From an uncultured Paracoccaceae bacterium (GTDB lineage Bacteria > Pseudomonadota > Alphaproteobacteria > Rhodobacterales > Rhodobacteraceae): a stretch of 64,000 nt of DNA. Positions 33,328 through 50,296 of the stretch are shown here, piece by piece. The first letter of the stretch is position 1, and each line of letters starts with the position of its first letter. The DNA lies in NCBI GenBank assembly GCA_947503965.1, contig CANNFU010000001.1:434001-498000 (forward strand), in the 5' to 3' direction. A program made the position numbers and the translations under genes. The notes under the pieces are model-generated. The model worked only from the letters and a program-made list of their open reading frames with translations, was not told where the DNA came from and did no database searches.

Positions 33328-34371
33328 CTATTCAGACAATTGCGCCGACGCCCAGATCAGTGCCTGATTGCCACCCAGCTTGCTGTGCGACAATGGACGA
33401 TGTTCTTCGGCAAAAGCATCCAATTCCGGGTCCCAGGACAAGGCAAGATACGCTTCAAGCCAAGCGAGTTGAAAACTGCGCAGTTCCTCGGTGCCGTCAA
33501 AGTAACTTTGCACCTCACCAGAATAGGCTTGGCTGCGTTCGCCGGTTTCCAGGTCATCCAGCGCAAACCGCACGATGCGATCCAGCGCGTTGTCGCACAC
33601 ACCCCTGATCGACAGGCCTTGTTGCTCCAGCAGCAATGTGGTGACAACCATCGGCGCAATGGCGTGCAACTGGTAGTGCAATGCGTATTTGCCGCGGCGT
33701 GTTTCCTGGGGCAGGCTGCCATCGGCGCGCGCCTCGCATTGCATCAATGTGGCCGACCAGGCTGACCAACGCAAAGCGACAGGATCATCATTGATTTCAG
33801 CGCTCAGATTGATGGCAAGCGTGGCCCAGCCACGCAAATTACCCAGCCGCGCACCCGATGTGGCGTCCTGTTCCCAGAATGCCATCTGCTCCTCTGTTCG
33901 CACGGCAAGCCAGTCTTTGATCTCGGTGCGCTTGGCCGGGTTCGATGAATAAGGCGCGACCTGATTATAGATGAATGCGAAACCGGCAAGACGTGAACCG
34001 ATGGACAATTGCGCGGTATAGCTGCGCAATTCGGAAAACGCATCGGCTTCGGCCCAAGTGGCAAGCTGCCCGATCACACAATCAGCCTGCGCCATCCGAT
34101 CACCTTCACCGGCGGTGACGTCATTGGCAATTTTGACAAGATCGCGCAGGAAAGTCTCGATCGGTTCAAGCGCGGCATTGACGGCGGCATTACTGTCTTC
34201 GTCGATGTCCGAGCGGCTTTCGCTTTCATCGGTGTACCGGCTGCCATAGTTCAGCGATATGACGGGTTCAGGCGTGGGCGGGCACACAAATGCCGTATCG
34301 TCGGCATGCGCGATATGACCGGTTGCACATGTCACTGCGATACAGGCGATGAAAAGCGGTATCTGTTTCAT
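33328..34371 (-). CDS. algL: AlgL-like protein (PL5 fold), catalytic residues replaced
   Basis: 347 residues, signal peptide (FIACIAVTCATGHIAHA-D), then the alginate lyase start CPPTPEPVISLNYGSRY. The family regions NNHxYW and RALxYHNY of active lyases read GNLRGW and YALHYQLH here, so the catalytic His, Arg and Tyr appear to be Leu, Tyr and His. I infer a structurally kept but lyase-inactive protein, or one with another specificity. It is last in the alg cluster and overlaps the upstream gene by ATGA. In Pseudomonas, AlgL clears stray polymer from the periplasm. Confidence 0.7.
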   Translation of the reverse strand: MKQIPLFIACIAVTCATGHIAHADDTAFVCPPTPEPVISLNYGSRYTDESESRSDIDEDSNAAVNAALEPIETFLRDLVKIANDVTAGEGDRMAQADCVIGQLATWAEADAFSELRSYTAQLSIGSRLAGFAFIYNQVAPYSSNPAKRTEIKDWLAVRTEEQMAFWEQDATSGARLGNLRGWATLAINLSAEINDDPVALRWSAWSATLMQCEARADGSLPQETRRGKYALHYQLHAIAPMVVTTLLLEQQGLSIRGVCDNALDRIVRFALDDLETGERSQAYSGEVQSYFDGTEELRSFQLAWLEAYLALSWDPELDAFAEEHRPLSHSKLGGNQALIWASAQLSE

Positions 34372-37133
34372 GTTCCATCCCGAAGGTTAAGCAGTGACGT
34401 GATTGCGATGGCTTTTTCGGATCCGTTGGCGGCGGCTTTTTCAAGCCAAACCAGGGCCGCCTGCGGATCCGGTTCCACCCCCAGCCCAAAGGCAAGAGCA
34501 TGACCCAGTTCGGCCATTGCCGTTGTATCCCCACCCTCTGCGGCCTGGCTGAGCCACGCTGTTGAGGTCGCGAGGTCCTGTGCTGACGCCGCGTTTTCGC
34601 GAAGATGTAGCGCGTATGTTCGCATCGCGAAAACATCCCCGTTCTCTGCGGCCGTCAGATAGATCGCGGGCATGTCGATATGTGTATCGACGGCAGCCTG
34701 CGCTGTCGGGTCTGCCCGCCGATAGCGGCCAAGATAGCCCTCCAGCACTGATCGGTCTGGATTATCGACGGCACTGGCCAACATTTCGGCCGCGCGTGCC
34801 GGGTCATAAGTGACGGCATCTTGCGCCAGCAGCAGTTCGAACAAACCACGCGCGGCTGACGGATCGCCCCGTTCATAAGCCTGTTCGTAGAATACCTGCG
34901 CGGTGCGGGCAGCGTCCATGCCGCCAATGGCCAGATGGGACCGGGCCAGATCCGTCATCGCCCATGCATTTCCATCAACCAGATGTTGTGCGATATCCAT
35001 CCAGCGCAGCGCCTCATCGGGGTCATCAAGCGCCAAGGACAAGTCAGCCAAGGTCATGACATTCTTGTAATCGCACAACATCACCCCAACCGCCCGCGCG
35101 ATATAGCTTTCGCGTTGATCGGGCTCCAGAAATGGAATCGCAAAAATCAGGGCGTCAAAATCACCATTGGCCTCGATCACATCTGCGAATTTTTCGTAGG
35201 TCAACCGGCCAGTCGGGTCGTTGGCATCTGTTGATGCCAGAAGGCGCATGGCGGCGCCCTCGCCTGCCGATGCAGGTTCGGTCAAAAGCCGGGCAACCTC
35301 TGCACTGCTGTCCACAGCGGCGCTATTGTAGTTCAAAAGCGCTTCGGCCAATGCCAAAGCGGCTGACGCACCGGCGTTGCGATACTCCGTCCGCAGCAAA
35401 TCAATCGCGGCCAACCGTTCGACGGGATTTTGCGCAAGTTCAAGTTCCAGCTGCGCCAGCGCCTTGAGCACTTGCGTATATTGGCCAGAATACTCTTCCC
35501 AGAAGGCCCGGATCTCGGGGGTGGCGCGGTCGTAATACTCCAGAAACTTCAAATAGCTCGCCAGTGATTTGGGGCGCCCATACAGCGCCTGCGACTGGAT
35601 CGTGGCAATTGTCAGCGGATCATCTTCGGCTGTCAGGGTGATCAGATCATTGGCGGAAATCTCGATATTTGCTGAATCGGTTGCCGCTTCGACAGCACGC
35701 CAATGTGCAGCTTCTTCTAATCGCGGGCTGTCTGGGGCCTGACACATGAATGCGGCATGCAGGTGTTTGGCGGGTGTCACACCGCCATAGACGGACACGG
35801 TGTGGCTAAGCAGGTCAACGGCCCGTTCGAACTCTTCTGCGCTGCCGCGTCGGCTGATCAGGATCTGGGCAAGGCGGCTCATCCCGTCCATGTCGCCAAG
35901 TTCTGCAGCTCGTTCCAGAAGCGTAATCGCCTTATCCTCGCCAGCCCAGCGACCTTCGCGGATCAACACGTCTTGAGCGAGGCGGGTGAAAATCCAACCC
36001 GGCGCATCATCAAGCTCTGCCAGCTGCTGAAGGGCGGCATAGCGTTCATCGTCTAGTTCCGGATAGTCATCACGATGCGTTTCCAAAAAAAGCGACAATC
36101 GGGTTAGGCCAGGGCGTTTTCCGGTCGAAGCCGCATCGCGATAAAGTTCCAGCGTACGGTCAAGATCTTGTTCAACAAGCGCACCGGTTTCATAAAGTCG
36201 CCCCAGTTCGATCTGGGCAAAAGGCAGACCCGCGTCCGATGCCTGATAAAGATATTGCAGCAGGACATCATTGTCCTTTTCAAAACCTTCGGCCTCCATA
36301 TGGTATTCGACAACCTTCCATGCGGCGTTGGCATCGCCCAGATCAGCGGTGAACCTGAACCAATCATGGGCCAGTTGAACGTTCCGCTGCACCACATCAC
36401 CATTGTGGAATTCCCGCGCGATCCGCGCCGTCCGGTCGCAGATCGTCGGGTTGAGTTCGCCAACCAAGGCACCAAAGGCCATTGTCACAGCCAGATCCGT
36501 TGGCACATCCCAGCCCGCGGGTGCTTCGCCGGCCAAAGCCATCCTGCTTAGCGTCAGCAGCGCGTCGGCATTTCCTGCATGACCTGCCGCGACTAGCAAT
36601 TGATCGGCCTTTTCGATGTCGCGATCCACCCCGATACCTTCACGAAAAAACCGCGAGAGCGCGTTCTTCAGGCGCGGTGAAAGGTTGTCCGCGTCGGTCG
36701 CCAGTTGAACAACCAGTTGCTGCGTGCGGATGCCATCGAAATCACCCGCAGCCTCCATCGCGCCGATCCGCGCCAAAAGAGCGTTATTCCCGGCGAACCC
36801 CGGATCAACTTCGGCAATTCGCGTGATCAGCGTATCCACCGTTTCAAACCAACGACGTCCGTTGATGCCCTGCAGACGGTTCATGTCGCGCTTGATCAGC
36901 GGAATGCTCATCTCAGGCAATCGGCCGCCGTCCCAGTTGCTCCAGAATGCGATTGTGTCTTCGTCACTGGCGCGGGGGGTACAAATCGGGTCAGGCGCTA
37001 CGGCAGGCGGTTCGAATTCCAGCGCGATTGGACCTGTCTGCCCAAAGGCATAAGCGGGCAGCAACATGGCACCGACGGCCAACGACTGCGCCGTTGTCCG
37101 AATGACATCTTTTGCTTTCAAAGAAATATGCAT
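34368..37133 (-). CDS. Large Sel1/TPR-repeat periplasmic protein, AlgK-like by position
   Basis: 921 residues from ATG 37133 (MHISLKAKDV). A signal peptide ends near LLPAYAFG-Q; there is no lipobox. The rest is an array of helical-pair Sel1-like repeats, for example GDANAAWKVVEYHMEAEGF, GLPFAQIELGRLYETGAL, GDMDGMSRLAQILIS and GDTTAMAELGHALAFGLG. Pseudomonas AlgK is a lipoprotein of about 475 residues made of the same kind of repeats. This protein is about twice as long and not lipidated, so it may also do scaffold work of missing parts such as AlgE. Located between algF and algL. Confidence 0.72.
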   Translation of the reverse strand: MHISLKAKDVIRTTAQSLAVGAMLLPAYAFGQTGPIALEFEPPAVAPDPICTPRASDEDTIAFWSNWDGGRLPEMSIPLIKRDMNRLQGINGRRWFETVDTLITRIAEVDPGFAGNNALLARIGAMEAAGDFDGIRTQQLVVQLATDADNLSPRLKNALSRFFREGIGVDRDIEKADQLLVAAGHAGNADALLTLSRMALAGEAPAGWDVPTDLAVTMAFGALVGELNPTICDRTARIAREFHNGDVVQRNVQLAHDWFRFTADLGDANAAWKVVEYHMEAEGFEKDNDVLLQYLYQASDAGLPFAQIELGRLYETGALVEQDLDRTLELYRDAASTGKRPGLTRLSLFLETHRDDYPELDDERYAALQQLAELDDAPGWIFTRLAQDVLIREGRWAGEDKAITLLERAAELGDMDGMSRLAQILISRRGSAEEFERAVDLLSHTVSVYGGVTPAKHLHAAFMCQAPDSPRLEEAAHWRAVEAATDSANIEISANDLITLTAEDDPLTIATIQSQALYGRPKSLASYLKFLEYYDRATPEIRAFWEEYSGQYTQVLKALAQLELELAQNPVERLAAIDLLRTEYRNAGASAALALAEALLNYNSAAVDSSAEVARLLTEPASAGEGAAMRLLASTDANDPTGRLTYEKFADVIEANGDFDALIFAIPFLEPDQRESYIARAVGVMLCDYKNVMTLADLSLALDDPDEALRWMDIAQHLVDGNAWAMTDLARSHLAIGGMDAARTAQVFYEQAYERGDPSAARGLFELLLAQDAVTYDPARAAEMLASAVDNPDRSVLEGYLGRYRRADPTAQAAVDTHIDMPAIYLTAAENGDVFAMRTYALHLRENAASAQDLATSTAWLSQAAEGGDTTAMAELGHALAFGLGVEPDPQAALVWLEKAAANGSEKAIAITSLLNLRDGT

Positions 37134-37149
37134 GCTGCTGCCCCGTCTT

Positions 37150-37773
37150 TTACTTGAGATACACGTTCGACATGGCTGTGGCCGCGTAGGTGCCGCCAAC
37201 CTCTGTCAGGATGATCGACACGCCAGCGCGTCGTTCCAGTGCGACCTGCTCGACCGATGCCAGGGTTTCCCCGTTCGCACGCATCTGAAAATCCAGCGTC
37301 AAGGGCGCCCGCAAGGCGACTGATGATCCGGTCATCGCATCAATGTCACTGATCGCGGATTGATCCGCCGCCGGGACAAAAAGCTCGACATCATCTGTGC
37401 CTGACAGGTTGTAAACGGTGACGTCGGACTTTGCCGGATCCAGAGTGATGTTATCGGTCAGGATCTCCGGCTCCTGCCCCTCTAACAGCACAACAGTATA
37501 GTGGGAACTGGGTGCAACTTCCATCGACACGCTGGTGCTGGACAACGTGATGTCAATCTCGCCGGGCATGACATTGACGTAGTCTGACACACCGTCTTCG
37601 ATATCGCGCACGGTCTTGCCGTTCACAGATGCGAAACTTTGACCCGGCGCAAGAATGCGCACAAAGCTCGAATTGGGGTCAAAGACATCTTCGTACAAAC
37701 CATCATCATTCGCAAAAGTAGGATAAGCTTGAACCAAAAACGCGGCCAAGACAGAGAGCTTTACAAGTTTCAT
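37150..37773 (-). CDS. algF: Alginate O-acetyltransferase component AlgF-like
   Basis: 207 residues from ATG 37773, which overlaps the algX TGA (ATGA) and has GGAAGA upstream; a longer frame lacks support. Signal peptide (LSVLAAFLVQAYPTFA-N), then LYEDVFDPNSSFVRILA, SSTSVSMEVAPSSHYTVVL and YNLSGTDDVELFVPA, matching the beta-rich periplasmic AlgF. AlgF is required for polymer O-acetylation with AlgI and AlgJ. Confidence 0.8.
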   Translation of the reverse strand: MKLVKLSVLAAFLVQAYPTFANDDGLYEDVFDPNSSFVRILAPGQSFASVNGKTVRDIEDGVSDYVNVMPGEIDITLSSTSVSMEVAPSSHYTVVLLEGQEPEILTDNITLDPAKSDVTVYNLSGTDDVELFVPAADQSAISDIDAMTGSSVALRAPLTLDFQMRANGETLASVEQVALERRAGVSIILTEVGGTYAATAMSNVYLK

Positions 37774-39101
37774 GAGTCTTCCTTTCTTATTGAAGTGCAA
37801 GCATAGACATTCGGGGCGGATGAAAAGGGACGCTCCATCGACACCGCGACCGACGCGGCGCCCTCTGGCCACAGCCCTGAAAGCGGCATGTAAAAGCGAC
37901 CTGTGCGCGTCAGACGCTCACCCCGGACAATGGTTTTGGTGCGGGTCAAACCATCTGCGGACTGGAAGGTGAAATCGGTCGTCAATCCAAGGGATCGGTT
38001 AGTATCCACCAGCAATGTGTCCTCGGGTCCCAGATCGTGACCCGATAAATCCACCGTCAGACGATCCAACCCATCCGTGACCTCTGCGGGCAAAGCAACC
38101 GTACAGCTGCGCCCGGCCGCTGCGATCAGTTCACGCATGGGCTGGTCGCCAAACTGGGCCAAATTGTTGTAGATCGGGTTTTCCCAGATCAGAAACTTGG
38201 GCCGTGTTTCCTGAAAATCCGCTGATGTGAGAAAGGACACCATCGCCCCATACTGGTTGCCGCCAGTAATGGCATAGTTCACCACCTCAAGTTCAGCATA
38301 TTCAGCGATGAAACCGGGGAAGTTATTGATCGGGCTGTCCGAAAAGGATGTGCCCGCCAGGGCCACAGGCACGGCATCCGCCCCATCACCGAACAGGTCC
38401 AGCCCACCGCCCAGATCGACCGCACTGGTCTGCACGGTTTCATAGGTCATCGTCTCGGCCTCTGGCAGGGTGTCCAGACAATGGGACTGCAGCAATCGCC
38501 GCATACCCGAAAATGCGATTTGCACATCCCGTGGCTCGCTTTCAAAGGCGACTTTGGGCAGATCCGCGTAATCCGGCTGCGCGCTGATCACATCCGCGAT
38601 GGCTTTGGCTGTCTCGCGCGCGCCGCTGGCTGACCAGTGAAAATCCGCCTGAAAGAAGGCCAGATCATCTTCGGGGGCCTGCAACATCGCACTGCGGGCA
38701 TCGACCGTGACAACCCCGGCGGCCGTCAACCGTTCCAGAATATCGTCATGTACCCTCGTTGCGATCTCAAGATCGAACCCATAAAGCGCGGCGGCATCCG
38801 GCAGATGGCCCGGCATCGTCACGCTTTTTGTCGGGATCGGGACATAAATCAGCGTGGTGCCATTTTCGGCCAATGCCTGCGATAGTTCAGCAAGATATGC
38901 GACCGTCTGATCCGAAAATGGGTGGTTCATCCGCAGATCGGCATTGATCCGGAAGAATACGCCATCACGCCCTTCAATGCTGGGTAATTCGTGGTTCCGC
39001 TCCAGTCCGGTGCAGCCATAGTTGCTTTCGGCCATCGCCGGCGCGGCCCACCCCAGCAAAGTCGCGATCACGCAGGCGCCGATCGGTTTTGTCCGTTTCA
39101 T
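37770..39101 (-). CDS. algX: Alginate O-acetyltransferase AlgX-like (SGNH)
   Basis: 443 residues with signal peptide (VIATLLGWAAPAMA-E) and the AlgX start SNYGCTGLERNHELPSIEG. The SGNH catalytic Asp/His lie in FFQADFHWSASGA and the Ser in LAGTSFSDSPIN, all kept, so the enzyme should be active. The C-terminal 100 residues (from about SCTVALPAEVTDGL) correspond to the carbohydrate-binding module. It acts in the periplasm, transferring acetyl groups to the polymer. Overlaps its neighbours by ATGA on both sides. Confidence 0.85.
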   Translation of the reverse strand: MKRTKPIGACVIATLLGWAAPAMAESNYGCTGLERNHELPSIEGRDGVFFRINADLRMNHPFSDQTVAYLAELSQALAENGTTLIYVPIPTKSVTMPGHLPDAAALYGFDLEIATRVHDDILERLTAAGVVTVDARSAMLQAPEDDLAFFQADFHWSASGARETAKAIADVISAQPDYADLPKVAFESEPRDVQIAFSGMRRLLQSHCLDTLPEAETMTYETVQTSAVDLGGGLDLFGDGADAVPVALAGTSFSDSPINNFPGFIAEYAELEVVNYAITGGNQYGAMVSFLTSADFQETRPKFLIWENPIYNNLAQFGDQPMRELIAAAGRSCTVALPAEVTDGLDRLTVDLSGHDLGPEDTLLVDTNRSLGLTTDFTFQSADGLTRTKTIVRGERLTRTGRFYMPLSGLWPEGAASVAVSMERPFSSAPNVYACTSIRKEDS

Positions 39102-39859
39102 TGCGGGTCCTCACTGTTTAGGGGCGCGTATTCGGTCAATGCTGCCTCCAGCACCGGTTCAAGGTTCTGTGCGACAAGCCGGGTTTCCAGCGACGTGGCT
39201 TGGCTGGCGGCGGCCAGATAGGTTTGCACATTCAGCAAATCCTGCTTGGTCCGCTGGCGATCTTGCAGAATGGCCACCGCATGGCGAAGTGACAGTTCGG
39301 CACCCAATTCCCCATCAAGCCGGGCAAGAACGGCCTCGACCTCGTCGTATAGGGGGCCAAAGGGAACCTGCCGCCAATGGTAGCGGATCAGTGCCTCTGC
39401 CGCCGCGCTGTTGCCCGCATTGGCATACGCAACGACGATGCCGCGCAGAAGCCCAAGACGGCGCGGGCCGACATCCGCAGGATCGATCTGATCCAGATGC
39501 CGGATCATGTTCACGATCGCCCCACCCCGCCCGGTCGCAGCGGCCATACCGTAGTAATGCGCAATATCGGCCGGGTTATTCGCGCCGCTTTCCTCAAGCC
39601 GCTGGGCAAAACGCAACGCAGCGAACCCATCCCCCAGATCAGCCAAGCGGCGCAGCTGCGTTGTCGAGACAAAGCGTCCTTGCGCCAGATCGCGCCGGGT
39701 CTGAACCAGGTCTTCCGACGGAAGCTGCAGCCAGGACGTGATACCGGGCGTCATGACAACCGTGATGCGATGCGGGGCGATGTCTTCTGTTTCCGCCATG
39801 GCGTTGACCGCAAAGCCGCCAAGACAGACATATGCCAGTGAAAATACTAACCTACGCAT
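39098..39859 (-). CDS. TPR-like periplasmic protein of the alg cluster, unknown
   Basis: 253 residues from ATG 39859 (AAGGATGG upstream). Signal peptide (LAYVCLGGFAVNAMA-E), then helical-pair repeats (DGFAALRFAQRLEESG, IAHYYGMAAATGRGGAIVNM, AGNSAAAEALIRYHW). It has no counterpart in the classical Pseudomonas alg operon but is embedded between algJ and algX with overlapping ends, so it belongs to the machine. It could partner the acetyltransferases or the large Sel1 protein. Confidence 0.7.
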   Translation of the reverse strand: MRRLVFSLAYVCLGGFAVNAMAETEDIAPHRITVVMTPGITSWLQLPSEDLVQTRRDLAQGRFVSTTQLRRLADLGDGFAALRFAQRLEESGANNPADIAHYYGMAAATGRGGAIVNMIRHLDQIDPADVGPRRLGLLRGIVVAYANAGNSAAAEALIRYHWRQVPFGPLYDEVEAVLARLDGELGAELSLRHAVAILQDRQRTKQDLLNVQTYLAAASQATSLETRLVAQNLEPVLEAALTEYAPLNSEDPQ

Positions 39860-40916
39860 TGCCGCCATCCTTCGATACGGCTTGCATAAGATCTGGGTCA
39901 CTCAGGTAGCGAACCGGGAATTCCCAGATCACAACGGCAGGCGGGCTGGCCGTATCGAGCCGTTGCAGAAAAGCATGCATCGGGGCGACAGGCCCCTGTC
40001 CTTCCTCGGCATAGTTAATGACATCCTGCCGCAGAGCCAGTTTCAGGGCTGCGTCAAAGCTCCACTTTGGATTGGCCGAATAGCTGGTGCCGACCAAAGC
40101 AATAGCAGCCGACGTATCATTGCCGAACAAATCAAGCGCACCGGACTGCACGTTCTGCGCCACCTCAGCGCGGTAAGACGCGATGCTTTCCTGGGGCAAG
40201 CCAACTTTCGGTGCCAGAACATCAGAGGTGACAAAAGTCACCAGATCGCCTGTGAACGGTGCGGCTGGGGCATCGACGCGCGTGACGATGCTATCGCCGA
40301 TCAACGCCGGATCGGTTGCAGCCACGGCGCCAGCCACCGCCGCGGCACCTTGGGCAGTCCAATGCGTGTCCGTTGCGAAAAATGGCTGATCAATTGACAA
40401 AAGTGCGGGCCGTGTGTCCACATAGCTGACATTCAGGCCATCAAGCGCCGACAAAAATGCGTCATAGCTTTGTGCAATCTGGTGGACCGGCGCGGCTGTC
40501 GTAAATCTTGTCTGATCAATCTCCAGCTTTGCAGGCAGCGGTACGATGATCAGGTCAGTGCCAACAGCGGCAAGTTGCGTTTGAACATGCGCGATCCAGT
40601 CCAGCGGTATCGACATATCATCAACTTCGCGAAACTCTTCTGCGCTGAAAAGCCAACCGTTTTCGCCGACCACGACGCCAGACCGACCCTCGTTCAGCAG
40701 CGCATAACGCGCCGCACCAACCCAGCTGACCGCCACGTCGCGATGCGGCAGGTTCGCGCGGTAAATCCCGTCTACCTCTTGCGCGAATTCACCTTTCATA
40801 AAGCCTTGCAACGGCGGCGTTTCCACATCACCCGCCAGCAGCGTGTAATTCGCAAAAAGCGCATAGCCAAAGAAGGCGGCGGGTATCATCATCTTTGTGG
40901 TGAGTTGGAGTGACAT
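39852..40916 (-). CDS. algJ: Alginate O-acetyltransferase AlgJ-like (SGNH)
   Basis: 354 residues. An N-terminal hydrophobic helix (MIPAAFFGYALFANYTLLAG) acts as anchor or uncleaved signal. SGNH residues: DxH in FFATDTHWTAQGAA and the nucleophile Ser in LVGTSYSANPKWSF. YDAFLSALDGLNVSYVDT matches the AlgX/AlgJ fold. It passes acetyl from AlgI onto the polymer route. Directly downstream of algI. Confidence 0.83.
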   Translation of the reverse strand: MSLQLTTKMMIPAAFFGYALFANYTLLAGDVETPPLQGFMKGEFAQEVDGIYRANLPHRDVAVSWVGAARYALLNEGRSGVVVGENGWLFSAEEFREVDDMSIPLDWIAHVQTQLAAVGTDLIIVPLPAKLEIDQTRFTTAAPVHQIAQSYDAFLSALDGLNVSYVDTRPALLSIDQPFFATDTHWTAQGAAAVAGAVAATDPALIGDSIVTRVDAPAAPFTGDLVTFVTSDVLAPKVGLPQESIASYRAEVAQNVQSGALDLFGNDTSAAIALVGTSYSANPKWSFDAALKLALRQDVINYAEEGQGPVAPMHAFLQRLDTASPPAVVIWEFPVRYLSDPDLMQAVSKDGGNA

Positions 40917-40929
40917 GCCAAACCTCCGG

Positions 40930-42375
40930 TCAGAATTGGAAATAGAGGAAGGGTGAGAAACTTTGCTCGGCCAGCTTCAGGACGGTCAGCGCCCCAATTG
41001 ACAGAACCATGAAGGTCAGCGCGATTTGCATGCCCGGCAAGGCGGTAATCGTGCCATCGGCCCTGATGGACCCGCCTGCCTTGTTCTGCCCAGTGAACGC
41101 GGCGTGCAGATGCGGTTCGGCACAGGCGACACAGGCGGCAAGCAAGGTGAACATCAGGCTTTCGCGGGTGACGTCGAACCACACGCTTTGATCCCCGATC
41201 AGCCCGTTCATCCCGATCATGCCTGCGTAAATCTCAAACGCTTCGCCCACATGGGTTGCACGGAACATCACCCAGCCGATCAGCACAAAAAGCAGCGTCA
41301 AAGGCAGCGCGAACCACCGGCTCGCCGCCTTGCGATCCCACCCCAGATAGCGTTCGGATGCCAGCAACCCGCCATGCCAGAACCCCCACAGCACAAAGGT
41401 CCAGTTCGCCCCGTGCCATAGCCCGCCCAGCACCATTACGGTCATCAAATTGACGTAAGTCCGCGTTGGCCCTTTGCGGTTGCCCCCAAGCGAGATGTAA
41501 AGGTAATCGCGCAGCCAGTTCGACAGTGAGATATGCCAGCGCCGCCAGAATTCGGTGATCGACTTGCTGATATAGGGAAAGCGGAAGTTTTCGAGGAAAT
41601 TGAACCCCATCATCTTGCCCAGCCCGATGGCCATATCGCTATAGCCCGAGAAGTCGAAATAAAGCTGCAGCATATACGCAATGGCACCCGCCCAGGCGAG
41701 CGCCATGCCGGGGTTTTCGGTCGCAAAGGCCAGATCGGCAAGCGGGGCGACAGCATCGGCCAGGATGACCTTTTTCGCCAGCCCGATCAGAAACCGGGTC
41801 AGACCATCGCAGAATAACTCGACCGAGTGTTCCCGTTGGCGGAACTGATCCTCCAGATCCTTGTACCTCAGGATCGGCCCTGCGATCAGTTGCGGGAAAA
41901 GTGCGATGAAGGCGGCAAAATCAATGAACTTCGCGTCGGCCCGCGCATCGCCGCGATGCACATCGATCAGGTAGCTGAGTGCCTGAAAGATATAGAACGA
42001 AATCCCGATTGGAAGGATCAACCGCCAATGCACACCTAGTCCGGCGGCATCGGTACCGAACAGCATCGCGAAACTATCGATAAAGAAGTTCAGGTATTTG
42101 AAGACACCCAGCACACCCAGACAGCCGATCACCCCGATGGCCAGATAGACGCGCCCGCGCTGCGTGCCCCTGTGCAGGCTGATCTTTTGCCCGACGAGAT
42201 AGGCAAAGACCGTCGTCAGGAATAAGAGCCCCAAAAAATCGACCCGCCACCACGCGTAAAAGACATATGACCCGGCCAAGATCGGATAAGACCGAAACCG
42301 CACGGGCGTCAGGTAATAGACCGCCAGAAACAGCGGCAGGAACAGAAAGAGGAATGATTCCGACGAAAACACCAT
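40930..42375 (-). CDS. algI: Membrane-bound O-acyltransferase AlgI
   Basis: 481 residues, about eleven to twelve membrane helices. Diagnostic MBOAT sequence: VFSSESFLFLFLPLFLAVYY, FYIFQALSYLIDVHRGD, ISLSNWLRDYLYISLGGNRKG, and the catalytic His in LGGLWHGANWTFVLWGFWHG. It moves acetyl groups across the inner membrane to AlgJ/AlgX. It ends before algJ by 13 bases and starts two bases after algG. Confidence 0.93.
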   Translation of the reverse strand: MVFSSESFLFLFLPLFLAVYYLTPVRFRSYPILAGSYVFYAWWRVDFLGLLFLTTVFAYLVGQKISLHRGTQRGRVYLAIGVIGCLGVLGVFKYLNFFIDSFAMLFGTDAAGLGVHWRLILPIGISFYIFQALSYLIDVHRGDARADAKFIDFAAFIALFPQLIAGPILRYKDLEDQFRQREHSVELFCDGLTRFLIGLAKKVILADAVAPLADLAFATENPGMALAWAGAIAYMLQLYFDFSGYSDMAIGLGKMMGFNFLENFRFPYISKSITEFWRRWHISLSNWLRDYLYISLGGNRKGPTRTYVNLMTVMVLGGLWHGANWTFVLWGFWHGGLLASERYLGWDRKAASRWFALPLTLLFVLIGWVMFRATHVGEAFEIYAGMIGMNGLIGDQSVWFDVTRESLMFTLLAACVACAEPHLHAAFTGQNKAGGSIRADGTITALPGMQIALTFMVLSIGALTVLKLAEQSFSPFLYFQF

Positions 42376-42377
42376 GA

Positions 42378-43883
42378 TCAGCCGTCCTGCTCAAAATTGC
42401 ATGTGCCAGAGAAACCGCCGAAAACTTCGATGCCCCCGGCGACAAGCTGAATTTCATCGGTGCCTGTCAGATTGCCCATGATCTGGTGCGCTTCGCCCAG
42501 CAGGTCTCCTTCAACGAGCCGGGGGAACTGGTTGCTGAAGTCGTTTTCGCGCAGCGTCAGAATATGGGCCGAGGCTGACGCCAGCCCAACGCGATTGCCG
42601 GCAAAGATGTTTTGCGAAACGAGCGTTTCGTTGCCGTTCGGCTGATCGGCTACCAAAAGCCCGGAACTGTGATTGCCGAAGATCTGGTTGGATGTGACAG
42701 CTGCATGCCAGCTGGATTGCAGCTCAATCCCTTTTTTGCTGTTCTCCATCGCGACATTGCGCGTCACTTGCGTGCAGTCAGACCGGCGGATCGACAGGCC
42801 CACGCCACCGTTGCGCCACAGGATATTGTCCCGCACGGCCGTATTACGGCTGCCGCGCGTGATCTGGATGCCGGTATTGGCATTGTCAAATATCAGGTTG
42901 CCCGCAATCAGGCTGCCCGCCGCGCTATCGGTGATGCGCAGCGCACTGCCGCTTTGTGTTTCGGTGATCAGATTGCCGCTGACCGTGGCACCGTCAGTAC
43001 CGTTCAACACGATGCCTGCGTTGGTTGCACCTGTCAGAATATTGCCGTGAATGTCGGGTTCTGCCGCACCCAAAAAGGTGACCGCGCCAACATCGCGAAG
43101 GACGCTATGGGTCAGAAATGACTGGCCGATGGGCTGATACAGCCCTTTGTTCACCACAGCCAATCCAGAAAACGCTGCGGTCTTGCTGAAACCAAGACCG
43201 GAGATTTGGGCTCCGGTGATCTGTGCGATGCCTGATCCGGCTGTGACGACGAAAGGGGCATATTCAGGCACGTTCTGATTTTCAGGCCCCGCGACGCCAA
43301 TGGCCGCCAGGTCAATGATCAAAGTACCAAGGTTAAGAAGGAATGTGCCGTCAGGACGGCTGAGTTCTAACACATCATTTTCAGACAAGATCAGTTGTGC
43401 GCCCTCAAGCACAACAAGCGGCATCCGCAAGCCGACATCTGACATCAAATTGGTCGGGTCTGGTTGCGCTGCAATCCAATCCTTGACCTCGGCCAGGCTG
43501 ACGGTGCCGTTTCGGATAGCAATGACCTGCGGTTCCAGCGCTGATTGTGCGCGGATGACGGATAGCTGGTCATTGGTGCCCGCGTAGATTGACAGCTGCA
43601 CAAGTGCGATCCGCAGATCGATGAGTTGCAGTTCAGCAGGTTCCAGTTGTGCGGGCGTGAATGGGACTGCCGCGACAGCGGGTGCCTGCATCAGCGCGTC
43701 CAAAGCAGGTGCAGACAGGAGCGCGGTATCATTGGCCGCCTCAAGCTGAGGGCCAAGCGCGGCCAAAGCCACGGTTAAATCTTGCAGATCACGATAATCG
43801 TCAAGCGGATCAGCTTGCGCCGCCTGAAGCGACGCGAGGACGCCAATCATGATCAGACAAAGGCGACTAGGCATTAGACACAT
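42378..43883 (-). CDS. algG: AlgG-like right-handed beta-helix protein lacking the epimerase motif
   Basis: 501 residues with signal peptide (LCLIMIGVLASLQAAQA-D). An N-terminal helical part is followed from about residue 160 by beta-helix rungs (DVLELSRPDGTFLLNLG, LGFSKTAAFSGLAVVNKGLY, NLIFDNANTGIQITRGS, NQIFGNHSSGLLVAD). In epimerases the central rung carries YGIDPHDRS; the aligned segment here is AGIVLNGTDG, and DPHD does not occur anywhere in the protein. I infer no C5-epimerase activity, with a structural role kept. The start could also be ATG 43874. Confidence 0.75.
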   Translation of the reverse strand: MCLMPSRLCLIMIGVLASLQAAQADPLDDYRDLQDLTVALAALGPQLEAANDTALLSAPALDALMQAPAVAAVPFTPAQLEPAELQLIDLRIALVQLSIYAGTNDQLSVIRAQSALEPQVIAIRNGTVSLAEVKDWIAAQPDPTNLMSDVGLRMPLVVLEGAQLILSENDVLELSRPDGTFLLNLGTLIIDLAAIGVAGPENQNVPEYAPFVVTAGSGIAQITGAQISGLGFSKTAAFSGLAVVNKGLYQPIGQSFLTHSVLRDVGAVTFLGAAEPDIHGNILTGATNAGIVLNGTDGATVSGNLITETQSGSALRITDSAAGSLIAGNLIFDNANTGIQITRGSRNTAVRDNILWRNGGVGLSIRRSDCTQVTRNVAMENSKKGIELQSSWHAAVTSNQIFGNHSSGLLVADQPNGNETLVSQNIFAGNRVGLASASAHILTLRENDFSNQFPRLVEGDLLGEAHQIMGNLTGTDEIQLVAGGIEVFGGFSGTCNFEQDG

Positions 43884-45267
43884 CGCTTAACCGCAGCTCG
43901 GGGGATATGCTGCCGTTCATCGTCACCAACAACACCTCAGCACAGTCATTGGACCGATTGGTCAAGCCGAACTTTTCGCTGACCTCGACCAAGACGCGCT
44001 CACCACTGGACAGCTTGCGGCGGCTAAAGCCGTCAAACAGCTCCAGATCGCCGCGACCGGCAATGATCTGACGCCCCGGGAGGGGATCGATATTGATTGA
44101 TGCGCTTGGGTTGATCTTCAGCACGGTCATTTCATAGTCGGGAGAGGTTAGAACCGATTGGCTTTGCCCCCAGATATGATCACGCTGCAGGTGGTGATGA
44201 CTTTCGCGGCGTGCCTCGGCCCGCAGGGTTTCCGTCACTTTCTTGACGTCCTGGCATTTGCCGCGCGATGTCACCAGAACCGCGTCAGGTGTGTCGACAA
44301 CAATCACATCTGACATACCGACAACAGCCACCAGGCGCCCCTCGGACCGGACCAGCGAATTGGTGGTGCCCACGGAAATTACGTCGCCCTGACAAACATT
44401 TCCGGCCTCATCCGGCGTGCCGATGGCATGCATGGATGTCCAGCAACCCACATCGCTCCATTCGACGTCTAGCGGGGCAAGTGCCACAGATTTGCTGTGC
44501 TCGAAAATCACCCGTTCTGTGGGTTCATTTGTAGTACGGCGGAAACTGTCGGAATGCAAAAGCAGACCAAAATACCCCGCCTCACCCCGATCAATGGCAT
44601 GGCGTACAGCTGTAAATGTCGCCTTATCCAGCCGGGAAAACTCGGCAATGATCGTATTGGCGCCGTACAGGGAAATGCCGGACGCCCAATACGCGCAGCC
44701 GCTTTGCATCAATGCACGGGCACGCGACAGGGGCGGCTTTTCGACAAATTGCGCGACCCGATGCAGCCCGTCATAGGTGCTGAACTGGCCACCATCCGCG
44801 ATATACCCATAGCCGGTTTCAGGATAGGTCGGCTTGATACCGAACGTCACAATGCGACCGTCAAGAGCGGCCTTGCGCATTGCCATGATCGGAGAGTTCA
44901 GGTTGCCTTGTATGATATGATCCGACGGCAGCACCAGCATCAGCGCACCGGGTGTTTCATCTTCGATCACCATTGCGGCTGCCAGCACGGCAGGTCCGGT
45001 GTTGCGCGCCATCGGCTCGCAGATCACGGTCGCGTCACATTGGATTTCCTGCAACTGACGCGCCACGAGCTTCGCGTGCTGGAAAGCAGTCACAACGACG
45101 GGGCGTCCGAAGCCCTTGATGCGATGGCGTTGTACGGTTGACTGGAAAAAGGTCAGCGACCCCTTGCCTGCGACCGGCTGAAATTGCTTGGGGCTTTGGG
45201 TGCGGGACATCGGCCACAGGCGCGATCCCGTCCCACCGCAAAGAATAACTGGTCTTATCTCTTCCAT
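43867..45267 (-). CDS. algA: Mannose-1-phosphate guanylyltransferase, with degenerate isomerase domain
   Basis: 466 residues from ATG 45267. The guanylyltransferase part is intact: RPVILCGGTGSRLWPMSR, SPKQFQPV, LPSDHIIQG and FVEKPPLSRA, so it can make GDP-mannose. The C-terminal cupin that in AlgA carries the phosphomannose-isomerase histidines (QMHHHRAEHW) reads NIDPLPGRQIIAGRG here and lacks them, although HHHLQRDHIWG before it is recognisable. Mannose-6-phosphate must then come from another isomerase. Sits between alg44 and algG, overlapping algG. Confidence 0.87.
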   Translation of the reverse strand: MEEIRPVILCGGTGSRLWPMSRTQSPKQFQPVAGKGSLTFFQSTVQRHRIKGFGRPVVVTAFQHAKLVARQLQEIQCDATVICEPMARNTGPAVLAAAMVIEDETPGALMLVLPSDHIIQGNLNSPIMAMRKAALDGRIVTFGIKPTYPETGYGYIADGGQFSTYDGLHRVAQFVEKPPLSRARALMQSGCAYWASGISLYGANTIIAEFSRLDKATFTAVRHAIDRGEAGYFGLLLHSDSFRRTTNEPTERVIFEHSKSVALAPLDVEWSDVGCWTSMHAIGTPDEAGNVCQGDVISVGTTNSLVRSEGRLVAVVGMSDVIVVDTPDAVLVTSRGKCQDVKKVTETLRAEARRESHHHLQRDHIWGQSQSVLTSPDYEMTVLKINPSASINIDPLPGRQIIAGRGDLELFDGFSRRKLSSGERVLVEVSEKFGLTNRSNDCAEVLLVTMNGSISPELRLSDVSNA

Positions 45268-45339
45268 CACACTTCCATCCTTGTTCAGACACTCGGGTCA
45301 GCGGCGCTGACCACCCTCATTTCTTTTTTGGTTGCAGTG

Positions 45340-46419
45340 TTAGTTGATGGCACTCTCCTCCAGCGGAGCGGGCCAGAAGTTACGGCGAAAGCGCAGGCGT
45401 GCGGTTTCACCCAAGGCGATCCGGTCAGCCTCGGTATCGCTGATACGGATATCTGCGCTGACCACGTCAGCATTGGCCGGGGCTTCGGATGCGTCCGCCA
45501 GTTCCAGCATGACCGGCACGATGCGCCCATCCAAAAAGACCAGTTCAGGCTGATCCCCGGCCAATAGGCGGGCCACACCCTGATAGCTGATTTGCGTGCT
45601 GGCCTGTAACGCGGCATCCTGCGCGATCAACTTGACCAGGGGTGTGCCAGCCAGAACCGTCGCCCCTTCATAGAATTCTGGCGCGGGTTCTATTTCACAA
45701 TCGCAGGGCATCTGCACGCTGAGCAAGCTGCCGGTGTTGGCCCCTATCGAATAAACAACATCGCCAACATTGGCGTTGCTGTCCGCATAGGTGATCTGCC
45801 CGGCAGCGGTGGCCCGCAGGGTGTCGCCTTGCTGATCAATCAGAACCGGACGCGCCTCATAACTGAAGGCCAGTCGCTGATGCACCACATTGGCCGCCAC
45901 TGCCACCAGACCGATGCTGAGCGCGACAAGCAGACCACCGCGCACACCGTCACGCAGCCGGTTCAAGAACGTCCGCTCTGTCTTGGCTGCCTTGGCCTTG
46001 ACCTGCGTTGGGCCCGCATATTCCATAAAGCGGCCCATCGTGACCAGATCCCCGGCCAGGTGGCTGTTCAGGATGTATCGCAGCGGCGCAAGATGGCTGG
46101 CGGTCGGTTCGTTGAAGACCAATTCAAAATCAGCGCTTTCGTCATCGCCGACCTTGTAAATATCAGCCTCCAGAAACAGGCTGACCACAAAACCTTCGAA
46201 CGCAAAGGCCAGGATCACCGGCTGCCGCTTCCAATTCGCAGCGGGGGCCAACAGACCGGACACACAGGCTTTGGTTACCGAAAGCGATTTTCCTTCCATC
46301 CGGCGTTCACCGATATGGACGGAAAAGGGCACTTGCAGTTGCGGATGCTCGTTTTCGTAGACGAACGCGCCAGGCACTTCCTGATCAAGACGCAGCACGG
46401 GTTCACTTTCAGTTTTCAT
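45340..46419 (-). CDS. alg44: Alginate co-polymerase Alg44-like, PilZ motifs lost
   Basis: 359 residues from ATG 46419 (AGGAAG upstream). Order: an N-terminal PilZ-like domain (about 1-120), a membrane helix (GLLVALSIGLVAVAANVV, about 170) and a periplasmic HlyD-like domain with a CDC motif (SVQMPCDCEIEPAPE). In Pseudomonas Alg44 the PilZ domain binds cyclic di-GMP through RxxxR and (D/N)xSxxG. Here the aligned segments are ENEHPQLQVPF and SVTKACVSG, with no RxxxR and a degraded second box. Control by cyclic di-GMP is therefore unlikely. It pairs with Alg8. Confidence 0.83.
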   Translation of the reverse strand: MKTESEPVLRLDQEVPGAFVYENEHPQLQVPFSVHIGERRMEGKSLSVTKACVSGLLAPAANWKRQPVILAFAFEGFVVSLFLEADIYKVGDDESADFELVFNEPTASHLAPLRYILNSHLAGDLVTMGRFMEYAGPTQVKAKAAKTERTFLNRLRDGVRGGLLVALSIGLVAVAANVVHQRLAFSYEARPVLIDQQGDTLRATAAGQITYADSNANVGDVVYSIGANTGSLLSVQMPCDCEIEPAPEFYEGATVLAGTPLVKLIAQDAALQASTQISYQGVARLLAGDQPELVFLDGRIVPVMLELADASEAPANADVVSADIRISDTEADRIALGETARLRFRRNFWPAPLEESAIN

Positions 46420-46448
46420 CACTCGGTCTTCCTAGGCTTCGGTCGGCG

Positions 46449-47915
46449 CTACATCACGCCAGTGAGGTACAGGACGCCGATCATCAGCCATCCCATCGTA
46501 AGCAAGTGCATGTAAGAAGAGCTGGCAGCGACCAGTCGCGCCCCCAGCGGTTGCGGCTGGCGGTTGGACACACCGCTGGCCTGTCGGGTCCATTTTTGCC
46601 GGTCGAGGCGGAACAGGACATAGCTTTTGACTGCCGCCCCAAACAACTGGCTGAAGTAAAGCAGACCTGTGTAGGTAATCGGGAAAGAGCGGCCCCGAAA
46701 CAGGCAGATCGCCGTGCAGAACACATAGCGGGTCAGCATGACCCAGGCGATGTATGCAGGGATCACCGCCGGATCGAAGGTGACAGCAACGGCCAACACG
46801 CATAGTGGCCCGGCCAATGTGGTCCAGATCGACAAGCGTTGATCCAGGATGGACCACCAGGTGAAAAAACCAATCTGTGATGGCGACAGATCCAGCGCGC
46901 GACCATTGGTCCGCAGCATGTTGCCAAACCAGCGCACCATCAGGGCAGCAGCACTGCCGACAAAGGTGGGCTTTGGCTGCACCTCCATCGAGGAACTGGC
47001 GACATCCGGCAGATAGGCCATTTCATAGCCATGCTTCATCAACCAGAACCATGTGGATTTGTCATCGCCCGTCAGAAAATTCACGCGGCCCAGCCGCCAA
47101 TGGTCGATAAAGTCATGCTGCACGGCGTTGATGAAATCAGGCTTTGTCGCCAGATCGGCCCGAAACACCGACATCCGCCCGGTCAGTGTCAGAACCCGAT
47201 TGCTCAGGCCCATGGAACACATCATCACCTGCCGCTGGTCAAAGCGCAGCTCAAACCAGTCGCGAAACAGGCCGGGGGTCGGGATATCGACCTTTTCATC
47301 CGTCGTCAGCGCACCCACCTTGCGGTTGGTAAAGACAGGTGCCGATTGGGCGACGATGTCTTCCGGCACGCAGCTGTCACCATCAACAAAGATGATAATG
47401 TCATGCGGCGTCGGGCATTCGCGGGCGATCAGGTTCAGGGATTTGGCCAGCGCATCGCGTTTACCCGTGCCGGGGATGCGATCGATGATCAGTTTCACCG
47501 ATGCCATCTTGACCGGCATGGTGTCGTAAATCTGCTGGATCAACCGCGCGTCCGCGCCATCCACGACAGATGATACAATCGTCGCCCCGTTTTCAGACTT
47601 GGACGCGGCCAAGAAGATGCTGCGGTAAACCGGGATCGTGACCTCTGTATCGATCTTGTAAGAAGTGGTCAGAAAAAACGCATGCGCCCGGTGCGGCTGT
47701 GCGGCATAGGCCGCATGCGCACGTGCCTTGCGCCGTGGATAGGCAAAGCGCCGGAAAATCACTGCGCGGGTAAAGTTGATCGCCGCCCAGCTATAGCGCC
47801 ACATGCCCAGGACACCGACGACCAGCACCGCCTGCTGCACCTCTCCCAGAAACCCGGGAGGGACGAGAGAGGTCAGCAGAACGATCACCGACAGATATGC
47901 GAGATGGGATAACAT
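46449..47915 (-). CDS. alg8: Mannuronan synthase Alg8 (GT2)
   Basis: 488 residues, close to the 494 of Pseudomonas Alg8. N-terminal membrane helices, then the GT2 domain: VDGADARLI, IDRIPGTGKRDALAKSLN, the metal motif IIFVDGDSCVPED, the acceptor-region motif NFLTGDDKSTWFWLMK, and RWFGNMLRTNGRAL, followed by C-terminal helices. It polymerises GDP-mannuronate at the inner membrane. Catalytic Asp residues are all kept. Eight bases after algD. Confidence 0.9.
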   Translation of the reverse strand: MLSHLAYLSVIVLLTSLVPPGFLGEVQQAVLVVGVLGMWRYSWAAINFTRAVIFRRFAYPRRKARAHAAYAAQPHRAHAFFLTTSYKIDTEVTIPVYRSIFLAASKSENGATIVSSVVDGADARLIQQIYDTMPVKMASVKLIIDRIPGTGKRDALAKSLNLIARECPTPHDIIIFVDGDSCVPEDIVAQSAPVFTNRKVGALTTDEKVDIPTPGLFRDWFELRFDQRQVMMCSMGLSNRVLTLTGRMSVFRADLATKPDFINAVQHDFIDHWRLGRVNFLTGDDKSTWFWLMKHGYEMAYLPDVASSSMEVQPKPTFVGSAAALMVRWFGNMLRTNGRALDLSPSQIGFFTWWSILDQRLSIWTTLAGPLCVLAVAVTFDPAVIPAYIAWVMLTRYVFCTAICLFRGRSFPITYTGLLYFSQLFGAAVKSYVLFRLDRQKWTRQASGVSNRQPQPLGARLVAASSSYMHLLTMGWLMIGVLYLTGVM

Positions 47916-47923
47916 CGGGGGGC

Positions 47924-49243
47924 TTACCAGCAGATCCCGTCATACCCGCCGCCGGTGACCAGATCGCGATTGATCCGGGTCAGATCGACCATCGGTTTGG
48001 ACTTGGATGCGGCACCCAGTGCCTCGGCCGCGTCCTTGTACATGTTCCCGACAACAATCGCGTCAGAACCATCAATCAATGCCTGCAGTTCCGGCACAAG
48101 CCGCTGTTTCAGGTCGGGCACCACATCATTGCCACGTCCAGCGGTGGAGTTTTCGTTGGCATAGGCTTCGTGCACAAATGGATCGTAGATTTCGACGCCG
48201 ATGCCCGATTTGATCAGGCGTGATGCCAACTCAGCCAATGGACTTTCACGCATATCATCGGTGCCGGGCTTAAAGCTGATGCCGACAAAGCCGACCTTTT
48301 TGGCCTTGGAGCTGGCGACCATGGCTTCTGCCTTGGCGATCTGTTTCTCGTTCGCTTCAAGCACGGCCTGCAAAAGCGGGGCGGGCGTGCCCTTCACCTC
48401 GGCCAGATGCCGCAGCGCGCGCACGTCCTTGGGCAAACACGACCCGCCAAAGGCAAAGCCCGGGCGCATGAAATAGCGCGAGATGTTCACCTTGTCGTCG
48501 GAACACAGGATGTCCATGACAACCTGACCATCCAGACCGCACGCCTTGGCGATATTGCCGATCTCATTGGCAAAGGTCACTTTGACTGCGCGCCAGGTGT
48601 TGGATGTGTATTTCACCATTTCGGCCGTGCGCACGTCGACCACATGGATTTCCGCGCCCAGATCCTTGTTCAGATTGGTCAGCAGGTCCGCTGTCTGATG
48701 TTCCAGGGCACCAAAAACGATCAGACCGGGATCATAATAGTCTTCGATCGCAGTGCTTTCGCGCAGGAACTCAGGATAATAGCCCACGCCAAAGTCCAGC
48801 CCGGCGGTCTTGCCGGATGCGGCCTCCAATGTGGGGATACATGTCTGTTCCGTACTGCCCGGCACAATGGTCGAGCGGACGATGACCGAATGAAAAGCGT
48901 CCTTCTTTGCCAAGGCCGCACCGATGCTTTCGCAAACCGATGTGACATAGGTCAGACCCACGGCCCCGTTCGGCGCGCTTGGTGTGCCCACGCAAATGAA
49001 TGACGCCTCACTATTATCAACGGCGAATTGCACATCGTCCGTCGCGGTCAGTCGGCCTGCCGCCACCACCTCTGAAACCAAGGTATCAAGCCCGTTTTCC
49101 ACGATGGGCGACAGGCCCTTGTTGATCGCGTCGATCTTGCCTGCATCCACGTCAACAGCGATGACAGTATGCCCGTCTTTCGCCAGACACGCCGCCGCAA
49201 CGACGCCAACATATCCAATTCCAAAAATGCTAATCTTTGCCAC
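47924..49243 (-). CDS. algD: GDP-mannose 6-dehydrogenase
   Basis: 439 residues from GTG 49243 (MAKISIFGIGYVG), matching the 436 of Pseudomonas AlgD; the frame to 49315 adds 24 residues of no family character. NAD motif FGIGYVGVVAAACLA, catalytic Cys in FGGSCLPKDVRAL, conserved TSNTWRAVKVTFANEIGN. It oxidises GDP-mannose to GDP-mannuronate, the committed step of alginate-type synthesis, and is the first gene of the cluster. Confidence 0.93.
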   Translation of the reverse strand: MAKISIFGIGYVGVVAAACLAKDGHTVIAVDVDAGKIDAINKGLSPIVENGLDTLVSEVVAAGRLTATDDVQFAVDNSEASFICVGTPSAPNGAVGLTYVTSVCESIGAALAKKDAFHSVIVRSTIVPGSTEQTCIPTLEAASGKTAGLDFGVGYYPEFLRESTAIEDYYDPGLIVFGALEHQTADLLTNLNKDLGAEIHVVDVRTAEMVKYTSNTWRAVKVTFANEIGNIAKACGLDGQVVMDILCSDDKVNISRYFMRPGFAFGGSCLPKDVRALRHLAEVKGTPAPLLQAVLEANEKQIAKAEAMVASSKAKKVGFVGISFKPGTDDMRESPLAELASRLIKSGIGVEIYDPFVHEAYANENSTAGRGNDVVPDLKQRLVPELQALIDGSDAIVVGNMYKDAAEALGAASKSKPMVDLTRINRDLVTGGGYDGICW

Positions 49244-49597: not shown

Positions 49598-50296
49598 CTA
49601 GTTCAGCCAGCCTTGCGCCATGACGTAATGCACCAGCTTGGCGCGATCACCTAAGTTCAACTTTTGAGTGGCACGCGCCTTGTAGGTATCCACGGTCTTA
49701 CTGCTGATTTGTAGCTCATGCGCGATCTGCTTGGCGCTTTGACCGCGGGCAAAGCCGATCAACACTTCTTTCTCTCGCTCACTCAGCGGATCATCAGTCG
49801 TGCTCTCGGCCAGCATTGGCTGAAGTTGACTACCGAACTCCTTGTCAAAGCACATGCCCCCTGCAAGCACTACCGCCAGGGCGGCCTCAACTTCTTGCAG
49901 TCGCGCATTTTTTGAGATGCAGCCATGAAAACCTGCCTGGATCGTGGCGCGGATCATGGCCAATGACACCTTAAAGCTGTACCCTAAAAGCTTTGTTTGC
50001 GGGTGCGCAATACGAACTTTTTTGACAAAATCGCTGATGTCATTTTCCGGCCTGAGCTTGAGATGCATCGGGTCCAGCAGGAATACGTCAGGTGCAAGCC
50101 TTGCAATCTCAGAGCACAGGTTATCGTCAGTGCTGACAAAGTCGCAGTCAAGGTCGCTCTCGGCGCTGAGATGATTTGCAAGAACCTCGCCCAGCACCGG
50201 GTTCCTGTCAGCAATAACAATCAATTGTTTCTTCTTCGATCCAGCGGCGCCAATGCCTGGGCTGGTCAGATCTATATTCGTTGAATTTGAAGGCAT
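49598..50296 (-). CDS. NarL/FixJ-family response regulator
   Basis: 232 residues. The receiver domain has IVIADRNPVLGEVL, the phosphoacceptor Asp in DVFLLDPMHL and the Lys in GCISKNARL. The LuxR-type HTH is DPLSEREKEVLIGFARGQSAKQIAHELQ split by family rules, then SSKTVDTYKARATQKL. The second acidic residue of the receiver is Arg-flanked (ADRN), somewhat atypical. It stands directly upstream of the alg operon on the same strand and is the best local candidate for its control. No sensor kinase is beside it. Confidence 0.88.
   Translation of the reverse strand: MPSNSTNIDLTSPGIGAAGSKKKQLIVIADRNPVLGEVLANHLSAESDLDCDFVSTDDNLCSEIARLAPDVFLLDPMHLKLRPENDISDFVKKVRIAHPQTKLLGYSFKVSLAMIRATIQAGFHGCISKNARLQEVEAALAVVLAGGMCFDKEFGSQLQPMLAESTTDDPLSEREKEVLIGFARGQSAKQIAHELQISSKTVDTYKARATQKLNLGDRAKLVHYVMAQGWLN

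Follow-up and report, generated by a model that had tools for sequence, protein, structure and literature searches.

An alginate-type polysaccharide operon without AlgE in an uncultured Paracoccaceae bacterium and related Alphaproteobacteria

A stretch of 64,000 nucleotides from an uncultured Paracoccaceae bacterium (GenBank assembly GCA_947503965.1, contig CANNFU010000001.1, positions 434,001 to 498,000), here called the window, carries an alginate-type polysaccharide operon at positions 33328-49243. Twelve genes lie on the minus strand, overlapping or separated by short gaps, in the order algD-8-44-A-G-I-J-tpr-X-F-sel-L, where sel encodes a 921-residue Sel1 protein and tpr a small helical-repeat protein. 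The order differs from the algD-8-44-K-E-G-X-L-I-J-F-A of Pseudomonas and Azotobacter. Shared with those systems are AlgD, Alg8, the body of Alg44, the nucleotidyl half of AlgA, AlgI, AlgJ, AlgX and AlgF, and the folds of AlgG and AlgL. The window operon differs from them in having neither AlgE nor the AlgK lipoprotein, in having lost the cyclic di-GMP (c-di-GMP), epimerase, phosphomannose isomerase (PMI) and AlgL histidine motifs, and in adding the Sel1 protein and the small helical protein. The twelve packed genes and their order, given in a preliminary description of this DNA, are borne out by the open reading frames (ORFs) and by Pfam matches for algL, sel, algF, algX, algJ, algI, algG (beta-helix), algA, alg8 and algD, with alg44 identified by alignment.

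The first four genes appear to cover precursor synthesis and polymerization. AlgD (47924-49243) is a GDP-mannose 6-dehydrogenase whose top match in the PDB is the GDP-mannose dehydrogenase 1mfz, at 437 bits against 245 for the top UDP-glucose enzyme. Alg8 (46449-47915) is a GT2 mannuronan synthase by its Pfam match and shares 42% identity with one Pseudomonas-type Alg8. Its residues D122, D178/D180, GDDKST and R328-W329 are invariant across 12 family members, and the motif FLTGDDKS is common to it and canonical Alg8. The copolymerase-like Alg44 (45340-46419) has no Pfam match and lacks the PilZ c-di-GMP motifs; it aligns with a Pseudomonas-type Alg44 at 25% identity over 181 residues (E 2e-6, in a database of only four sequences). 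AlgA (43867-45267) is a mannose-1-phosphate guanylyltransferase with a degenerate isomerase half, and its match to GMP_PMI (TIGR01479) covers only residues 5-393 and scores 355.9 bits, under the cut-off of 372.95.

AlgG (42378-43883) is a NosD/beta-helix protein that matches the AlgG PDB entries 4ozy and 4nk6 and lacks the DPHD epimerase motif. The operon has a complete AlgI/AlgJ/AlgF set and an AlgX with an intact triad. AlgI (40930-42375) is an MBOAT acetyl-transfer membrane protein, 49% to canonical AlgI; AlgJ (39852-40916) is an SGNH acetyltransferase of the ALGX family; AlgF (37150-37773) has a Pfam AlgF match of 3.1e-11. The acetyltransferase/scaffold AlgX (37770-39101) matches PDB entry 4knc at 1e-33, with the DxH and Ser residues aligned. 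The last gene, algL (33328-34371), encodes a PL5-like protein (Pfam Alginate_lyase; PDB 4ozv and 7fhu) in which the active-site histidine is replaced by leucine.

The sel gene (34368-37133, start ATG at 37133) encodes a long protein with a Sel1 match and no lipobox pattern, as the preliminary description had it. That description also put it in the position of AlgK, which is not the case, since sel is the second to last gene. AlphaFold predicts an all-helical solenoid (predicted local distance difference test (pLDDT) score 90) with no strands for a barrel. The C-terminal half aligns with an AlgK profile (hhalign, 95%), and generic Sel1/TPR repeats fit equally well in fold searches; against the AlgK family NF038194 the protein scores 17.7 bits, with a cut-off of 700. 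Orthology to AlgK is therefore suggestive only. The product of tpr (39098-39868) has a signal-like N-terminus and is predicted to be all-helical (pLDDT 87). It has no match in Pfam or NCBIfam, and its PDB matches are at chance level. An extra TPR gene had been described here; the gene is present, and its TPR label is not backed by any family match, only by the predicted helical fold. The exporters BcsC, PgaA and PelB have a long periplasmic helical repeat domain, like that predicted for sel; unlike these exporters, sel and tpr have no barrel domain. A barrel hidden inside the operon is ruled out, with sel and tpr predicted to be all-helical and the other genes matching enzymes, AlgF or Alg44.

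The operon belongs to a family found across several alphaproteobacterial groups. A close Alg8 (59-70% identity, or the window's own) is present in 18 of 248 sampled genomes of the same family. Among 385 genomes sampled across the class, 23 have an Alg8 match at E<=1e-30 and none besides the window's own (914 bits) exceeds 556 bits, suggesting a broad but patchy distribution of the operon family. Screening of 84,980 species confirmed at least 574 loci, a number not taken as prevalence, since a canonical Alg8 has the pattern FLTGDDKS too. The best 80 loci were examined and come from Rhodobacterales, Rhizobium, Agrobacterium, Martelella, Devosia and Roseibium. With one Devosia psychrophila locus (L147) set aside, gene order is identical in 79 of 79 for the genes found, some contigs ending inside the operon. 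This conserved order is more than chance. By both Alg8 and sel the closest relatives are Yoonia, Cognatiyoonia and Loktanella, which makes the host a Yoonia/Loktanella-like alphaproteobacterium. The view of the locus as an alginate-type synthase operon that lacks AlgE and includes two genes for helical scaffold proteins is supported. The family rows counted below include near-duplicates (distinct sequences: Alg44 85/94, AlgG 84/90, AlgX 82/88, AlgL 34/34) and leave out proteins below the length limits; the D. psychrophila locus is left out of the family counts, and six loci of a group labelled t are left out of the subtype counts. The canonical control operons number four, two of which are close relatives (L187 and L197). 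In one locus (L036, 14553-19567) sel has an interruption of about 2.4 kb and algX is split into two matches.

AlgE is missing from the operon, as previously described, and the copy elsewhere in the genome that the preliminary description named as its own refutation is not found either: PF13372 gives zero matches even at E<=10. The same model detected AlgE in 8/8 Pseudomonas-type control genomes, the control comprising eight of the 11 genomes above the AlgG cut-off. AlgE is found in two of 34 genomes of the same family whose Alg8 match reaches E<=1e-30, and both have only a distant Alg8 (34% and 37% identity to that of the window). None of the 18 close-group genomes has a PF13372 match, three of them (G021, G022 and G159) being less than 90% complete. 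No match over the cut-off is seen in 16 named-record genomes, 15 of the operon family plus D. psychrophila. AlgE is thus missing in 31 distinct family genomes overall, two of the 15 named-record genomes being repeats of earlier ones. A single sub-threshold match, in G262, is interrupted by stops. The same family of bacteria also contains a second, distant Alg8 group (L051-L067; 33-37%), in which AlgE lies within about 10 kb only in G139 and G187.

Other outer-membrane exporters were sought in 30 genomes, which amount to 28 owing to two apparently identical pairs (G006/G254 and G097/G255). Five exporter families were searched in all (AlgE, BcsC, PgaA, BBP2_2 and OPX). The BcsC barrel PF05420 and the PgaA barrel PF21197 are found in 0/30, with E. 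coli matching both as the control. BBP2_2 exceeds its cut-off in 7/30 genomes, and the window genome is not one of these. OPX proteins are present in 30/30, always unlinked, and no copy in the window genome shares a contig with the operon. The assertion that export must use another porin is therefore not borne out, since the BcsC and PgaA barrels are absent, OPX is unlinked and the polymer may be retained in the periplasm. Eight window ORFs outside the operon in one Pfam search and four in another have no barrel-family match. Clustering of flanking ORFs from 13 loci and 17 further stretches, a coarse search with crude ORF picking and few ORFs tested with Pfam, found no shared barrel neighbor outside Devosia.

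Several of the retained proteins have lost key residues. The PilZ pattern RxxxR...[DN]xSxxG of Alg44 is present in 4/4 canonical sequences and in 0/94 family rows (one of which, L075, lacks its N-terminus); an unaligned search of the first 70 residues for RxxxR alone gave 10 family rows. In P. aeruginosa, loss of binding at the c-di-GMP motif halts alginate production (PMC8461298). The AlgG motif DPHD, whose histidine is the probable proton abstractor (PMC4444821), is found in 4/4 canonical and 0/90 family rows, scored by substring count, as aligned columns are unreliable. The NNH of the four canonical AlgL sequences is NLR in 34/34 family rows, replacing the active-site histidine with leucine, and the active-site Arg and Tyr are retained. 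NLR is also found in 12/12 further AlgL ORFs, some from genomes already counted; these were obtained from 12 of 13 3' flanks, no ORF being picked in L153. The metal motif of the AlgA isomerase half is present in 3/3 canonical sequences and 0/81 distinct relatives, and is missing in the C-terminal half of the window protein too. The lipobox pattern occurs in 4/4 canonical AlgK, in 3/86 sel rows and in 0/84 tpr rows. The overall pattern is one in which proteins are retained and key residues lost. The preliminary description was right in its observation and in part in its interpretation: its account of the layout stands apart from the position of sel. What escaped it are the missing motifs for c-di-GMP binding, epimerization, isomerization and, in part, lyase action, the wide conservation and a second subtype of the operon (see below).

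Devosia psychrophila (L147/L149) and G735 (L190) resemble the family in that Alg8 is still about 46% identical, the Sel1 proteins come as a pair and PF13372 has no match. They differ from it in that DPHD is intact in both and AlgG has a long N-terminal extension. The D. psychrophila loci also retain the PilZ motif, the AlgX triad and the AlgL NNH, though not the Tyr-Trp that follows NNH, and the contig of L147 also encodes an AlgA in which the PMI motif is present. As this genome has no AlgE, the loss of AlgE and the loss of motifs look like separate steps. The AlgG extension, of several hundred residues, is seen in L147/L149, L190 and L169, and that of L147 has no Pfam match.

Two subtypes of the operon can be told apart. 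Among the 73 untruncated loci, 47 have algI (type a, with algJ in 46, algF in 45 and tpr in 46) and 26 have none of algI, algJ and algF (type n). The window operon is of type a. Type n retains algX, sel and algL in 26/26 loci and tpr in 24/26. In type a the DTH and Ser motifs of AlgJ are retained in 53/53 rows, and the Asp-His-Ser triad of AlgX is intact in 51/51 distinct sequences. The triad is lost in 31/31 distinct type-n sequences, in which His is never retained (Arg in 26) and Ser, its position taken from the window's own motif, is retained in two (Glu or Asp in 23). The replacements in type-n AlgX of Martelella are distinct, being Leu with Arg twice and Tyr with Gln once. Deletion of AlgI, AlgJ or AlgF spares secretion and deletion of AlgX does not (PMC9734138), which fits the gene content of type n. 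A quick Alg8 tree nests type n within type a and requires two changes, one for 27 Rhodobacterales rows and one for three Martelella rows. Apparently, two independent losses of the acetylation genes and the AlgX triad would fit this tree, the direction of loss depending on its root and nesting.

The subtypes also differ in their surroundings. A LuxR-type response regulator lies upstream of the window operon (49598-50296, minus strand, by Pfam) and is a possible regulator; a homolog is found within 2.5 kb of algD in 35/43 type-a loci and 0/23 type-n loci. A divergent gene homologous to PF14099 lyases is found in 12/23 type-n loci and 0/43 type-a loci, one of the six queries (L042) having been tested with Pfam. 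These homologs lie upstream of algD in L037, L042, L045-L048 and 12 named n loci and have no PDB match; five of six copies have a lipobox-like N-terminus as judged by eye. Some genomes have both subtypes, namely G183 (a, L038; n, L042) and strain CCMM004 (a, L083; n, L086), with the a copy lacking algD and algA. Of the a-type loci, L083 and L088 lack both genes, and their genomes also have a complete n copy (L086, and L042 of G183); the AlgX of L038 is identical to that of L088. This arrangement is as expected if both copies draw on one GDP-sugar.

With slightly better than even confidence, the locus is read as an alginate-like, synthase-dependent machine for mannuronan. AlgE and AlgK would have been lost from it, along with most of its regulation and editing, while the protein bodies would remain as a conduit through the periplasm. 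GDP-mannuronate would be made by AlgD and the guanylyltransferase half of AlgA, and Alg8-Alg44 would polymerize the chain and push it out without canonical c-di-GMP control. AlgI, AlgJ, AlgF and AlgX would acetylate the chain in type a, and in type n it would be left plain. AlgG would no longer epimerize, giving mannuronan without G residues, and AlgL would be a weak lyase at most. The chain may pass AlgG and AlgX and then the Sel1 scaffold, with sel and the small helical protein replacing AlgK and receiving the chain from AlgX. To cross the outer membrane the chain would use a channel encoded away from the operon, for which a resident OPX protein is the most plausible candidate; this route is put first only because OPX is the sole family of the five searched that is seen in all genomes. 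This exit route is the weak point of the proposal, and the chain may instead leave through an unseen barrel or stay in the periplasm. The reading draws on the order held in 79/79 loci, the matches of AlgD and Alg8, the two a-type operons whose missing algD and algA are present in a complete n copy of the same genome, the motif losses and the exporter counts. Gene content and order, the motif losses, the absence of the barrels searched for and the helical predictions are direct results; polymer identity, independence from c-di-GMP, the role of the scaffold and the exit route are inferred. A broader claim is put forward only tentatively: that this is a widespread alphaproteobacterial, c-di-GMP-free mannuronan machine without a barrel of its own, which uses non-catalytic enzymes as guides together with a 921-residue scaffold and whose polymer leaves via a shared OPX channel or is kept in the periplasm.

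Several observations weigh against the mannuronan-conduit reading. The presence of OPX does not discriminate, as these proteins may be general in such bacteria. A more distant relative, G357 (L169), has AlgE on another contig, so unlinked AlgE does exist in the wider group. Pfam could also miss a barrel that has diverged very far. Devosia Root413D1 has two small OMP_b-brl genes, one about 0.8 kb from algL and one upstream of algD, and the second of these has a homolog in Devosia 66-14 (L156 8368-9183 and L165 7585-8217 in Root413D1; L130 473-1099 in 66-14). Degenerate PilZ domains may bind other ligands. The H202A variant of P. aeruginosa AlgL has unmeasurable activity in vitro and behaves like wild type in vivo (PMC8829089), so that the change from His to Leu need not abolish function. 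Finally, the type-n locus L142 lacks algD and algA, a second copy in that genome not having been searched for.

The strongest competing explanation, held only tentatively, is that the polymer leaves through a dedicated, unlinked and highly divergent beta-barrel missed by the AlgE, BcsC, PgaA and BBP2_2 models. AlgK/AlgE, PelB and PgaA each couple a helical scaffold with a barrel (PMC9734138), and the unlinked AlgE of G357 and the small barrel genes near the operon in Devosia point the same way. However, the Devosia OMP_b-brl barrel has no further match in the other loci (tblastn against all loci collected, E<=1e-3), the coarse clustering of flanks gave no common barrel gene outside that genus, AlgE is missing from all 31 of the distinct family genomes, and the barrels of BcsC and PgaA are found in 0/30.

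The same missing barrels would also suit a periplasmic mannuronan that is not exported and is retained by the Sel1 solenoid together with AlgG, AlgX and AlgL as non-catalytic bodies. The scarcity of lipobox patterns (absent from 83/86 sel and 84/84 tpr rows, against 4/4 canonical AlgK with one) and the loss of the lyase histidine and isomerase motif are in keeping with such a polymer. This is nonetheless unlikely, since alginate build-up in the periplasm harms the P. aeruginosa cell (PMC8829089), and the PF14099-lyase homolog of the n loci, with its lipobox-like N-termini, fits a polymer met at the surface.

It is somewhat less probable again that the product is a different uronan, with the specificities of AlgD, Alg8 and the lyase changed and the likeness to alginate only historical. 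The invariant replacement of the AlgL histidine, the loss of DPHD and the PF14099-lyase homolog beside n operons could be seen in this light, but AlgD scores clearly as a GDP-mannose dehydrogenase and Alg8 shares FLTGDDKS with the canonical enzyme. A decaying operon, suggested by the many lost catalytic motifs, the split sel of L036 and split matches in L075, L104, L138 and others, is very improbable given an order held in 79/79 loci across two orders, genes mostly in one piece, an invariant NLR replacement and a sel product predicted to be well folded.

Atypical alginate operons without algKE, from deep-sea bacteria among others, were reported by Bundalovic-Torma et al. in 2020 (PMC7112194), and the absence of AlgE by itself is therefore not new. 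Those operons share with the present family the loss of outer-membrane transport genes; the available portion of that report mentions neither of the orders Rhodobacterales and Rhizobiales, nor a Sel1 replacement or lost motifs. None of the papers listed in a literature search, with most subscription journals and preprints outside it, describes alg operons in Rhodobacterales or Rhizobiales. The operon is a variant of the alginate-type synthase system, of interest chiefly for the question of export and because AlgX catalysis is lost together with the acetylation genes. The family represents an alginate-type synthase without the c-di-GMP motif. If the broader claim above is true, the system would either combine synthase-dependent with OPX export or make a periplasmic polysaccharide of a new kind. 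The family raises, in many genomes at once, the question of how a polymer made by a synthase gets across the outer membrane when the system has no barrel of its own. Type n may serve as a natural experiment in which the guiding role of AlgX is separable from its enzymatic role.

Two neighboring genes flank this region of the window. On the plus strand at 31211-33310, convergent with algL, lies a gene whose Pfam matches indicate a pyridine-nucleotide oxidoreductase fused with an AIRS/SelD-like domain. Upstream of the luxR gene, at 50833-54177 on the minus strand, is a gene for a signaling protein with SAM, adenylate cyclase, AAA_16 and TPR domains.

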